This document shows, piece after piece, positions 1,926 through 57,949 of a stretch of DNA of 64,000 bases (its first letter is position 1; the number at the start of each line of letters is the position of its first letter). The stretch lies in assembly GCF_016906305.1 (NCBI RefSeq), contig NZ_JADDOL010000010.1, forward strand, positions 1 to 64,000, given 5' to 3'. The DNA comes from Alloalcanivorax marinus (GTDB lineage: Bacteria; Pseudomonadota; Gammaproteobacteria; Pseudomonadales; Alcanivoracaceae). The position numbers were made by a program, and so were the translations under genes. The notes beneath the pieces are model-generated. The model saw only the letters and a list, made by a program, of their open reading frames with translations, did no database searches and was not told where the DNA came from.

Positions 1926-2726
1926 TTACACGGACTTCTTGCGCAGCCGCCAGAGATTCAGCAGCAGACCGGTGACCACATAGACCACGGCCACGGTCAG
2001 CAGCACCAGCGGCGGGTCCAGGAATACGATGGCGAATGCCACGATCACGCCCAGCAGCACCTTGAAGGGCACCCGCCCAATATGAAACTCCTTGAACGAG
2101 TGGTAGCGCACCGAGGACACCATCAGCAGACCGGCGCCGGCTACCGTGAAGGCTACCAGCCAGGAGATGTCGTTTCCGTCAACGCCACGGCTGGCGCCCA
2201 GCCACACCAGGGTGGCCACCAGGCCAGCGCCGGTGGGGCTGGGCAGCCCGATAAAGAAGCGCTTGTCGGTGCTCTCCGCCTGCACATTGAAACGGGCCAG
2301 CCGCAGGGCGGCACAGGCCAGGTAGATGAAGGCGGCCATCCAGCCGAACTTGCCCAGCTCGGACAGGCCCCAGGAGTAGGCCACCAACCCCGGCGCCACG
2401 CCGAAGGCCACGCAGTCCGACAGCGAGTCGTACTCCGCGCCGAACTTGCTCTGGGTGTTGGTGAGGCGCGCCACGCCACCATCCAGACCATCGAGAATAC
2501 CGGCCACGATAATGCCCACCGCGGCCGCCTCGAACAGGCCGTTCATGGCCGCGACGATGGCGTAGAAGCCGGCGAACAGGGCGCCGGTGGTGAACAGGTT
2601 GGGCAGCAGGTACACCCCCTTGTGGCGGGCGCCGGTGCGTTCGGCTTCCACCACCTCGAAGGCGTCGGGCGCGCGGTCACCGGTCTCGGGGGAACGGTCC
2701 TGGGGACGGTCTTGATGCTCGGCCAT
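1926..2726 (-). CDS. pssA: CDP-diacylglycerol-serine O-phosphatidyltransferase
   Basis: Integral membrane enzyme that makes phosphatidylserine, precursor of phosphatidylethanolamine, from CDP-diacylglycerol and serine. The CDP-alcohol phosphatidyltransferase signature DGx2ARx8Gx3Dx3D is complete at residues 82-104 of 266. Several hydrophobic segments follow. The first ~30 residues are hydrophilic and charged and precede the conserved start of the domain. It lies behind ilvC, separated by a hairpin terminator, as in pseudomonads. TAGACT just downstream of that hairpin could be a weak -10 for pssA, but no good -35 accompanies it. Confidence 0.92.
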
Positions 2727-2776
2727 GGTTGCTCACGGTTATGGGCGTTGCCGCTAGTCTACCCCAGGCACCGGAC

Positions 2777-2807
2777 GCAAAAAACGCGCCCGGGGGCGCG
2801 TTTTTGC
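2777..2807 (-). terminator. Rho-independent terminator after ilvC
   Basis: GCAAAAAACGCGCC, a CGGG loop and GGCGCGTTTTTGC form a strong GC stem flanked by A and T runs, so it can terminate on either strand. On the minus strand it lies about 30 bp past the ilvC stop and before pssA. Confidence 0.8.
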
Positions 2808-2838
2808 AAAGCTTGAGGCCGCCAAGGGGCGGCGCGCT

Positions 2839-4864
<2,026 letters not shown>

Positions 4865-55152: not shown

Positions 55153-55353
55153 ATGAGCAAAATCATCAGACTGGAACAACGGTGCCCGGAAACGGCACTG
55201 GACAACCTCAACAGGCTCACCGGGCTGGACTTTCAGAGCTGGCCGGAGTCGTTGCTGGAGATCGGAGAGGACGTGGCCGCCGACAATCTGGAGGCTTCGT
55301 CCGAGCGCGAGGGGGGAAAGGCGCCGGCACCCGTGGCCGGCTATGGCCGCTAG
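55153..55353 (+). CDS. Small hypothetical protein
   Basis: A 66-residue ORF, MSKIIRLEQRCPETALDN at its start, with no recognised domain, one Cys and no membrane segment; the C-terminal half is charged and low in hydrophobics. It has a GGGG-rich site upstream and a sigma-54-like promoter at the right distance, which are the main reasons to call it a gene. It stands between the divergent AraC-type gene and the convergent unknown gene at 55419. It could be an Alcanivorax-type orphan protein or a chance ORF. Confidence 0.5.
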   Translation: MSKIIRLEQRCPETALDNLNRLTGLDFQSWPESLLEIGEDVAADNLEASSEREGGKAPAPVAGYGR

Positions 55354-55418: not shown

Positions 55419-55799
55419 TCAATAATTGGAAATCAGCTTGTCCTGGGGACGCAGGGCGGTGCCCCGGCGCTGCATGTACAGCTCCTCGATCACATAGCGC
55501 GTGCCCGGATCCGATAGACGCAGGGATAGCTGGACCTGTTCCACGCTGTCCGTGAAACGCAACCGTACCAATCCGGACAGCAGCGCGCTGCCATCGCCGC
55601 CGACCTCGGCGGCGTCCACCAGCACTGCGGGGTGGTTACTGGCGTCCAGGTAGCGGACCACCAACTGCAGCGTACCGGGCTGGCCGGACACCCGGACCCA
55701 GGCGGCCACGTTGAATTCCGCGTCCCATTGACGGGCGCGAGCGGGACGTGCGCTCGCCCAGATGCGGTTCGGCACCTTGGCGATCACCTTTTCGATCAT
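55419..55799 (-). CDS. Hypothetical protein, possible beta-rich domain
   Basis: A 126-residue protein (MIEKVIAKVPNRIWASAR) not recognised. Alternating hydrophobic stretches (FNVAAWVRVSG; LQLVVRYLD; LRFTDSVEQVQLSLRLS) suggest a beta-sandwich. No signal peptide or cysteines are seen. The frame stays open upstream to 56021 across a GC-rich tandem repeat, which would add a low-complexity Arg/Gly/Ser/Leu tail; I prefer the ATG at 55799 because the repeat does not look like conserved coding. Stop is 66 bp from the convergent small ORF. Confidence 0.55.
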   Translation of the reverse strand: MIEKVIAKVPNRIWASARPARARQWDAEFNVAAWVRVSGQPGTLQLVVRYLDASNHPAVLVDAAEVGGDGSALLSGLVRLRFTDSVEQVQLSLRLSDPGTRYVIEELYMQRRGTALRPQDKLISNY

Positions 55800-55837
55800 A
55801 AAGACGTCTCGATTCGGAACTTCGTATTGGACGGCAG

Positions 55838-55916
55838 CGGCGCCCCGTGGAGCGCCCGCGGCGCCTAAGGAGCGCCCGCGGCGTCCCAAGGAGCGCCCGC
55901 GGCGCCCCAAAGAGTG
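55838..55916. repeat. GC-rich 20/21-bp tandem repeat
   Basis: Three nearly identical units (55849-55868, 20 bp; 55869-55889 and 55890-55910, 21 bp each) of the form GGAGCGCCCGCGGCGyCCCAA, plus partial copies on both sides. It lies between the start of the unknown minus-strand gene and the phasin-like gene. Each unit contains the self-complementary core CCGCGG. Unit differences are few, so the array is probably young. Confidence 0.9.
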
Positions 55917-56090
55917 TACGGCCCGACCGTCGGTTCCCGCCACGTCCGACTTGGCGCCGGGCCTGAGCGGCTCGTCACAGCCTGCGGACACCGCTGCTGT
56001 CGGATTGTTTGACAAACCCAACCGGACCGGGGCGAGCCGGCGCTTATTATGCCCGCCATCGAAGCGACGGATGTGAAGGAGGATACTCGC

Positions 56091-56516
56091 ATGTCTGACT
56101 CAACCTTTCTGAACCGCGCCCGCCAATGGGGCGACAAACTCTACCTGGCCGGCCTGGGAGCCTACAGCAAGGCCGGTGAGAACACGGAAGCGCTGTACGC
56201 CCGCTGGGTGGAAACCGGCGGCGACGCCTATGGCGACGAGGCCGAGGGCAAGTCCCGGCTGCTGCTGGCCGGTCGCGGCCTGGTGGAAGACACCCGCGCC
56301 CTGCTCAGCGAGGCGCCGCGCAAGCGCCACGCGCTGTACGAAGAGTGTGTCGAAACCGGCAAGCAGGTCCGCGGTGAAGACGCGGAAGACAGCAATGAAT
56401 TCATCCTGGCCGGCGCCGGCGCGGTGGCGTCCGTGCGCGAGCGCGGCCGCCGCCTGTTCGACGGCTGGGTCAGCGCCGGTGAACAACTGAGTGCCGGCAA
56501 GCAGCAGGACGCCTGA
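56091..56516 (+). CDS. Phasin-like protein made of three repeats
   Basis: The 141-residue acidic helical protein carries three copies of a motif seen at the N-terminus of polyhydroxyalkanoate-granule phasins: LAGLG at 19-23 with LYARWVETG at 35-43; LAGRG at 59-63 with LYEECVETG at 82-90; LAGAG at 106-110 with LFDGWVSAG at 122-130. It has no signal peptide. The ATG at 56091 has GGAGGA seven bases upstream. It probably coats an intracellular storage granule or lipid inclusion, but no PHA synthase is near, so the target is inferred. A terminator follows at once. Confidence 0.75.
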   Translation: MSDSTFLNRARQWGDKLYLAGLGAYSKAGENTEALYARWVETGGDAYGDEAEGKSRLLLAGRGLVEDTRALLSEAPRKRHALYEECVETGKQVRGEDAEDSNEFILAGAGAVASVRERGRRLFDGWVSAGEQLSAGKQQDA

Positions 56517-56547: not shown

Positions 56548-56573
56548 GGGACCCTGATCGGGTCCCTTTTTTT
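56548..56573 (+). terminator. Terminator after the phasin-like gene
   Basis: GGGACCC and GGGTCCC with a five-base loop, followed by seven T. It lies about 30 bp past the stop, making the phasin-like gene monocistronic. Confidence 0.88.
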
Positions 56574-56626: not shown

Positions 56627-57949
56627 ATGGCCAAACGCCGCGACCGGGCCGCCTCCACCGGCGGCCGATTCTGGAAATTGACGGGCATGACCACCTCCAT
56701 CGCCACCCGCGTGGCCGGCCAGCAGGTGCGCGGCTGGTTTCAGTCGGACCAGGACCGTCAGGCCAGCCGCGAGGAACTGATGCGCCACATCGGCCGGGAG
56801 GTCGCCGCTACCCTCGGGCAGATGAAAGGCGCGGTCATGAAGGTGGGGCAGATCGCGTCGCAAATGCAGGACGTGCTGCCCCGGGAAATCAGTGAGCAAC
56901 TGGCGGTGCTGCAGAACGCCTCCGCACCCATGCCCTTCCATGTGATCCGGCGACAGCTGGAGAAGGAGTTGGGCGCCCCGGTGACGGAGCGTTTCGCGGA
57001 CTTCCAGGAAACCCCGTTCGCCGCCGCCTCCATCGGCCAGGTACACCGGGCCATCACCCTGGACGGCGAGCCGGTGGTGGTGAAGGTGCAGTACCCGGCG
57101 GTGAAAAGCTCCATCGACTCGGACATGAAGCACCTCAAGCGCATTCTCAAGCTGGGCAGCCTGCTGCGGGTGGACGAGCGCGCCCTGGACGCGGTGTTTC
57201 GCGAGATCCGCCAGCAACTGGACGAGGAACTGGATTACCACCGCGAGGCGGAGAATCTGCGCCTGTTCCGCGATTTCCACCGCCCCGATACCGATGTGGT
57301 GATCCCGAAGGTGTTCGAGGCCCTGTCCGGCGCCACCGTGCTGACCCTGAGCCTGGAAGAAGGCACCCCGCTGGACCAGGTCAATGACGACAACGGCTTC
57401 GACCAGGACCTGCGCAACCGGCTGGGGGAACGTCTGTTCGACCTGCTCGCCCGGCAGATCTTCCAACTGCACGCCGTGCACTGCGACCCGCACCCGGGCA
57501 ACTTCGCGTTCCGCCCCGACGGCGGCATCGTGTTCTACGATTTCGGCGCCGTGAAGCGGCTGCCGGAGGAAGACGTGGCGTTGATGGCCACGCTGACCGA
57601 CGCGGCGCTGCAACAGGACTGGGCGAGACTGGATCAGGCGTTGCTGGAGATCGGCGCCCGGCGCGCCGATACCCGGGTCGCCGACAGCTTCTATGACGCC
57701 TGGGTGCCGGTGCTGCTGCAGGGCGTCGCCGATACCCCCTACGACTTCGCCACCGCCCGGGTGCACCAGGAGGTGGTGAAGAAAGCCCGGGCCACGCCCT
57801 GGGAGGACATGCTCAAGTTCCAGCCCAGCTCCAGGACGCTGCTGGTGCAGCGCGTGGTGGGCGGTCATTACTGGACCTTGAAGAACCTGGGCGTGGCCAG
57901 CGCCCTGCGGCCACGGCTGCGGCGTATCCTCGAAGAGCGGGCCGCCTGA
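56627..57949 (+). CDS. ABC1/AarF (UbiB-type) atypical kinase
   Basis: The 440-residue protein has the ADCK/UbiB signatures: KxGQ at 72-75 (MKVGQIASQ), the Ala-rich loop AAASIGQVH in place of a glycine-rich loop, VVVKVQYP, HCDPHPGN and DFGAVKRL. The family acts as ATPase/kinase-like factors in ubiquinone and lipid metabolism. It lacks the C-terminal transmembrane pair of UbiB, and it is not in a ubi operon, so it is a UbiB paralogue rather than UbiB itself. Confidence 0.88.
   Translation: MAKRRDRAASTGGRFWKLTGMTTSIATRVAGQQVRGWFQSDQDRQASREELMRHIGREVAATLGQMKGAVMKVGQIASQMQDVLPREISEQLAVLQNASAPMPFHVIRRQLEKELGAPVTERFADFQETPFAAASIGQVHRAITLDGEPVVVKVQYPAVKSSIDSDMKHLKRILKLGSLLRVDERALDAVFREIRQQLDEELDYHREAENLRLFRDFHRPDTDVVIPKVFEALSGATVLTLSLEEGTPLDQVNDDNGFDQDLRNRLGERLFDLLARQIFQLHAVHCDPHPGNFAFRPDGGIVFYDFGAVKRLPEEDVALMATLTDAALQQDWARLDQALLEIGARRADTRVADSFYDAWVPVLLQGVADTPYDFATARVHQEVVKKARATPWEDMLKFQPSSRTLLVQRVVGGHYWTLKNLGVASALRPRLRRILEERAA

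Follow-up and report, generated by a model that had tools for sequence, protein, structure and literature searches.

PF05597 is a family of PHA-granule proteins. Its members of the PhaF and PhaI type, which are also described by TIGR01837, have a single granule-binding region of the form LAGxGA...LF..LV..G. Neutral-lipid droplets have coat proteins as well, such as TadA/MLDS in Rhodococcus. To our knowledge, how Gram-negative oil degraders keep their wax-ester or fat droplets apart, and which proteins are bound to these droplets, is poorly known. Among the matches listed from the open-access literature, no title concerned Alcanivorax droplet proteins or phasins on such bodies.

According to a review of phasins (PMC5658603, as excerpted), PhaF carries a zipper in its C-terminal part; by our reading, the zipper falls in the C-terminal half of the PF05597 profile. 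The same source describes PhaP of Aeromonas hydrophila, whose crystal structure is a tetramer of separate chains. PhaP is amphipathic and all-helical, as our protein is predicted to be, and is thought to open on hydrophobic surfaces (PMC5658603).

We analyzed a 64,000-nucleotide stretch of the genome of Alloalcanivorax marinus (the window), which encodes a phasin-like protein with three such units in one chain. A sequence-only reading had proposed that a granule-binding helix was triplicated here and that the protein, in an oil-degrading marine bacterium, could coat wax-ester or triacylglycerol bodies instead of PHA. The lineage (Alcanivorax/Alloalcanivorax) agrees with an oil degrader, and the nearest named relative is 90% identical.

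A gene with three repeated units

The gene lies at 56091..56516 on the + strand. As the sequence-only reading had stated, its ATG is at 56091 and its stop codon ends at 56516, which gives 141 amino acids plus the stop. A Shine-Dalgarno-like GGAGG stands upstream of the ATG (56078..56082, +); a sigma-70 scan found no promoter-like site. This is a real gene, because 44 of the 46 genomes of the family contain a homolog and because dN/dS relative to the nearest relative is about 0.24. Conservation and dN/dS rule out a spurious ORF.

Each unit corresponds to one predicted helix. Unit 1 (56094..56243, +; helix at residues 2-51) has the motif LAGLGAYSKAGENTEALYARWVETG at residues 19-43. Unit 2 (56256..56390, +; helix at residues 56-100) has the motif LAGRGLVEDTRALLSEAPRKRHALYEECVETG at residues 59-90, which includes 7 extra residues. 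Unit 3 (56397..56510, +; helix at residues 103-140) has the motif LAGAGAVASVRERGRRLFDGWVSAG at residues 106-130. The three LAGxG... copies are thus present as first noticed. The gap between the LY/LF and [WC]V elements is two residues, not three. The corrected pattern, LAGxG...L[YF]xx[WC]VxxG, occurs three times in the protein and not even once in 20,000 shuffled versions of it. Among the 549 stop-to-stop frames of at least 60 amino acids in the window, only the phasin ORF bears it.

Comparisons between the units agree with this. The three pairwise scores were reached by 0, 0, and 1 of 2000 shuffles, and profile-profile comparisons gave E = 6.5e-7, 5.2e-10, and 1.6e-6 (each E is for a single comparison). 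The shuffles and the unit-unit comparisons rule out a chance or low-complexity origin of the repeats.

Two units match the phasin family and the middle one has diverged

The whole protein scores 35.6 bits against PF05597 and passes its gathering score (28.8 bits) via two short stretches. Unit 1 matches positions 5-46 of the profile and unit 3 matches positions 16-53, so both fall in the N-terminal part of the profile, and the C-terminal half, with the zipper region, is unmatched. The protein falls short of TIGR01837 (PHA_granule_1; 39.7 bits versus a cut-off of 94.7). When searched alone against PF05597, unit 1 (E = 6.3e-5) and unit 3 (E = 1.8e-3) are hits, so two of the three repeats do match a phasin profile. 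No match to unit 2 was found in Pfam or NCBIfam. The units of the homolog from Alcanivorax profundi follow the same pattern, with 30.8 and 30.1 bits to PF05597 for units 1 and 3. In an alignment of 30 of the 45 places found, all 30 members match PF05597 at E ≤ 1. The LAG/LGA positions of units 1 and 3 are invariant or nearly so across the family.

The best reading of unit 2 is that of a phasin unit that has diverged, because a three-unit relative from another family of the order (genome G070) has a middle unit that lacks the insertion and resembles both unit 2 and unit 3 of the Alcanivoracaceae. The G070 middle unit scores 66 against unit 2 and 72 against unit 3, and 0 of 200 shuffles reach either score. 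The order of the units is kept between the families: unit 1 is nearest to unit 1 and unit 3 is nearest to unit 3. The proposed triplication therefore stands as three phasin-like units, of which the middle one has its 7 extra residues and lacks a phasin-profile match.

The protein also differs from other phasins at its end. The basic Lys/Ala (AAKP) tail is absent, as the sequence-only reading had said: the net charge is -5 and the last motif ends 11 residues before the end of the protein. More than the tail is missing, however, because the protein has no counterpart of the profile's whole C-terminal half. Nor is a Lys/Ala tail a general trait of phasins, because the full-length phasin on contig C10 of the same genome ends acidic. 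Unlike the three-unit protein, the C10 phasin covers nearly the whole PF05597 profile (112.5 bits, positions 8-124).

A search of PDB sequences with the three-unit protein returned no PhaP-type chain among its matches. As for descriptions of repeated phasins in the literature, nearly all of the matches listed concern genome phasing or repeats.

Predicted structure

AlphaFold2 predicts three long helices, one per unit, with a mean pLDDT of 87.1 and pTM of 0.59; two of the five models were much weaker (69.5 and 63.5). The best hit to this model was at E = 2.4 with Foldseek and at Z = 2.9 among 144 chains with VIA-align, values that have no bearing on whether the fold is new or different. A match in the PDB to a designed PPR protein (E = 1.3e-6) was set aside as chance helix likeness; its stretches score 8.0, 8.0, and 9.8 bits.

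For the protein of the window itself, amphipathicity exceeds that of shuffles in helices 1 and 3 but not in helix 2. Across 31 homologs, whole-helix amphipathicity exceeded that of shuffles in 26 for helix 1, in none for helix 2, and in 2 for helix 3. When the best stretch of 18 residues is taken, helix 1 is equalled by 346 and helix 2 by 459 of 2000 shuffles. We did not use amphipathicity as proof of surface binding, as it is too unclear relative to shuffles.

Distribution of the three-unit phasin

The three-unit phasin is nearly universal in its own family and narrow in its range. Homologs (E ≤ 0.001) were found in 44 of 46 family genomes, including its own, and in all 41 genomes of good quality. 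The two genomes without a homolog are 64% and 89% complete. A scan of a genome collection gave 35 loci, of which 31 are homologs in Alcanivorax, Alloalcanivorax, other Alcanivoracaceae, or gammaproteobacterial records (two of these come from one MAG). The other four are single-unit phasins of Ketobacter, Pseudomonadales, or Gammaproteobacteria. We aligned the window's protein with the 30 distinct sequences from the 31 loci, with one duplicate dropped. Of these 31 sequences, 30 contain three relaxed motifs and one contains two.

Across the order, 94 of 390 genomes match the profile at E ≤ 0.001. Outside the family, most of the places among the matches listed span about one unit, and only three genomes there matched over positions 1 to 142: G070 (E = 8.9e-43), G080 (2.6e-13), and G144 (0.001). 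In G070, three units score 43, 26, and 47 bits against a profile of the unit, and among the relatives from other families its protein seems to be the only one that clearly has three. By the unit profile, G080 has two units and G144 has one; they score 20.3 and 14.1 bits against PF05597, both under the cut-off. A class-wide scan found matches at E ≤ 1e-5 in 4 of 369 genomes: the organism's own, G080, and two others that match over a single unit.

In its own genome, the three-unit protein (on contig C2) is accompanied by two single-unit phasins. These three proteins are over the PF05597 cut-off: the full-length phasin on C10, the three-unit protein, and a short phasin on C56.

Two-unit relatives with an acyl-CoA-binding domain

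Scanning the multi-unit relatives, we found five fusions in which two phasin units are joined to an acyl-CoA-binding domain (PF00887); more may exist. These are L094 from G141 (3051-3839, PF00887 E = 1.1e-7), L095 from G192 (2607-3344, E = 1.9e-18), L106 from G343 (1349-2098, E = 1.2e-17), L093 from G360 (2242-2886, E = 1.2e-18), and L112 from G290 (1003-1743, E = 9.7e-21). All five pass the cut-off for PF00887 and four of the five reach the cut-off for PF05597, L094 exactly; the one under it, L093, is cut by the end of its contig. The five genomes belong to one family, which includes Ketobacter. The family also includes G271, which has a 1,400-base stretch that is identical to a Ketobacter MAG record. 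In another member of this family, G073, the related protein (L091) has a Lys/Ala-rich tail instead of the acyl-CoA-binding domain and is under the phasin cut-off (18.0 bits).

An alignment of L091 and four of the five fusions (L093 was left out) matches the three-unit alignment with a probability of 97.9% (E = 4.8e-13). The two are colinear over the start, unit 1, and the last unit, and the middle unit falls in a gap. Like the three-unit protein, which begins with MGELK, the fusions have a short M[G/T]KL-type start. They differ in that the middle unit is absent and that a Lys/Ala-rich linker and the acyl-CoA-binding domain have been added. No fusion of a phasin to an acyl-CoA-binding domain appeared by title among the literature matches listed (the search term also catches "phasing").

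WS/DGAT uses acyl-CoA as its substrate, and a phasin that binds granules and has an acyl-CoA-binding domain would thus fit a neutral-lipid droplet. PHA synthesis also uses hydroxyacyl-CoA. The genomes with fusions contain 4 (G141), 6 (G192), 2 (G343), 7 (G360), and 5 (G290) matches to WS/DGAT. PhaC_N is partial (profile positions 118-173) and over the cut-off in G141, G192, and G290, and is not found in G343 or G360. G080, the looser two-unit relative, has a full PhaC_N match.

Genes for wax esters, triacylglycerols, and PHA

WS/DGAT was found in all 46 family genomes. There is one match in the organism's own genome, on a different contig from the phasin. In G070, WS/DGAT gave two matches and PhaC_N gave none. 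This co-occurrence says little by itself, because WS/DGAT is common in the order: it was found in 13 of 15 genomes outside the family, which were chosen for their phasin hits and not at random.

The answer for phaC depends on the model. In the organism's own genome, no match to PF07167 (PhaC_N) was found, and across the family PhaC_N is found (E ≤ 0.001) in 5 of 46 genomes, always as a partial match, and over the cut-off in just one. We dropped the conclusion that the genome lacks phaC, which came from the PF07167 search, as all 46 genomes have a match to TIGR01836 (PhaC-like). The best match per genome ranges from 96.7 to 329 bits (in G020 and G041 this match is a fragment), and none of the 46 passes the cut-off of 365 bits. 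The genome's own match (204 bits) has a synthase-type GYCMGG box and the Asp and His, and it resembles solved PHA synthases (E = 2.5e-21). It is on contig C6 and the phasin gene is on C2, so the phasin gene is not in a pha cluster with phaC. We examined ten PhaC-like loci, two of which (L041 and L052) are the same, so that nine genes from nine genomes are represented. The Cys box GYC[MF]GG is present in all ten, the Asp motif in ten, and the His motif in nine. PHA stays in contention because no family genome is without a PhaC-like match and because the nine genes examined have the synthase-type Cys box. The PhaC-like enzyme with a GYCMGG box at L048:2674-3912 is under the cut-offs of PF07167, TIGR01836, TIGR01838, and TIGR01839.

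Published accounts, as excerpted, disagree as to whether Alcanivorax produces PHA. A. borkumensis SK2 and A. dieselolei KS 293 are described as having phaC2 and atfA1 and as forming inclusion bodies on pyruvate, with no PHB (PMC5174103). The other account states that Alcanivorax sp. 24 has phaC and a phasin and that PHA has been proven in other Alcanivorax (PMC7187450). Overall, the genome does not decide between neutral lipid and PHA.

Conserved gene neighborhood

In all 31 named homologous loci of the Alcanivoracaceae, the gene order is a 66-aa ORF (+), a 126-aa protein (-), the phasin (+), and an ABC1-type kinase (+). The kinase (56627..57949, +) is an ABC1/UbiB-like atypical kinase family protein with KxGQ and DPHPGN motifs that scores below the UbiB equivalog cut-off. 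Between the phasin and kinase genes is an intrinsic-terminator-like hairpin followed by a T run (56548..56566, +). The stretch scanned has 2 such sites, with a mean of 1.0 in shuffles. Because of the hairpin, an operon of phasin and kinase is unsupported, which weakens the kinase as an operon partner.

The 126-aa protein is divergently encoded (55422..55799, -), and the stretch tested had no match in Pfam. Its model is a beta jelly-roll (pLDDT 91, pTM 0.86) whose nearest folds in the PDB are chains of CBM22-bearing xylanases (E = 9e-4, TM 0.50-0.55 of the query). No family match was found in Pfam or NCBIfam for the 66-aa ORF (55153..55350, +), which has a recurring core of LNRLTGLDF...PES. In G070, a kinase that is 54% identical lies beside the phasin, and a protein related to the 126-aa one (34% identical) is about 2 kb away. 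Other neighbors in the window include an AraC-type regulator and an outer-membrane barrel (by Pfam) as well as ispB-like, histidine-kinase-like, and vWA-like proteins (by reading of the translations alone). The 126-aa protein and the phasin start divergently, and between their starts is a 21-bp tandem repeat with 3.8 copies (55837-55914).

A probable coat for neutral-lipid droplets

We propose, with a probability of about 0.55, that the protein is a concatenated phasin without a zipper and that it coats intracellular hydrophobic inclusions, which are most likely droplets of wax ester/triacylglycerol from the genome's WS/DGAT and not PHA granules. This proposal follows from co-occurrence and domain logic, and the earlier suggestion of wax-ester or triacylglycerol bodies instead of PHA is plausible. 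In the free state, three phasin-type helices in one chain, with neither the zipper-bearing C-terminal half nor a basic tail, would pack together. On contact with a droplet, the helices would open and spread over its surface, turning inward the small residues of LAGxGA along with the aromatic positions (LY/LF and W). Ordinary phasins owe their avidity to an oligomer driven by the zipper; here three binding helices in cis could take its place, in which case the protein would act as a monomer. If so, phasins can trade oligomerization for repeats in one chain, and the three-unit phasin would do the same job as TadA/MLDS. A candidate found nearly family-wide, along with relatives that bear acyl-CoA-binding domains, makes the question of a droplet coat testable.

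Against this proposal, every family genome has a PhaC-like match and the organism's own copy resembles PHA synthases. Also, three of the five fusion genomes have partial PhaC_N matches over the cut-off and G080 has a full one, and the two single-unit phasins of the organism's own genome could serve droplets instead. The protein might thus be an ordinary PHA phasin on the granules of the PhaC-like enzyme, with extra units that merely alter avidity. PF05597 membership, the Cys box, Asp, and His of the organism's own enzyme, and the reports of phaC, a phasin, and PHA in Alcanivorax (PMC7187450, as excerpted) all fit this. We nevertheless consider it rather unlikely: the PhaC-like proteins fall below the TIGR01836 cut-off in all 46 genomes, PhaC_N is over its cut-off in one, two strains are described as having no PHB (PMC5174103, as excerpted), and two-unit relatives carry an acyl-CoA-binding domain.

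Another explanation, which we think is unlikely, is that a phasin descendant works away from inclusions as a soluble stress-related, chaperone-like, or nucleoid-associated helical protein. Chaperone-like and stress activities of phasins have been reviewed (PMC5658603, as excerpted), helix 2 is not more amphipathic than shuffles in any of the 31 homologs, and unit 2 has lost its similarity to the phasin profile. However, the near-invariant LAG/LGA positions in units 1 and 3 argue against this, as do the negative net charge and absence of a basic DNA-binding tail, and the fusions of the relatives point to acyl-CoA or lipid metabolism. The kinase gene 3' of the phasin gene, in all 31 named loci and in G070, suggests by analogy to fibrillin and ABC1K on plastoglobules, where ABC1K kinases are reported to occur, that the protein might partner with the kinase on quinone- or isoprenoid-rich lipid particles. 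We find this quite improbable. Besides the hairpin between the two genes, general synteny may explain their order, because other neighbors are kept too, and no ABC1 match lies beside the two-unit relatives within stretches of about 3-11 kb.

Returning to the droplet coat, the fusions allow a broader and more tentative proposal, whose odds we put somewhat short of even. A branch of phasins with two or three units, an MG[E/K]L-type start, and no zipper half may have left PHA to become the droplet coat of Gram-negative producers of wax esters and triacylglycerols. In the form from the Ketobacter family, which has its own acyl-CoA-binding domain, the coat itself would keep acyl-CoA at the surface of the droplet for use by WS/DGAT.

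Other phasin-like proteins

The short phasin of the organism's own genome (L050:6113-6457, -) has a weak PhaE-like match at its C terminus (TIGR01834 and PF09712, both under the cut-off). Its gene adjoins that of an AraC-type regulator which is 32% identical to the one in the window. In other families, three single-unit phasins (L123:1223-1681, L125:1277-1810, and L128:1351-1935) have extra residues between the LAGLGA and LF/LV parts, which recall the 7-residue insertion in unit 2. The MGELK-type protein of G144 (L090:5682-6080) has a middle part of Lys/Asp/Ala helical repeats, with a period near 11 by eye, like lipid-binding helices.
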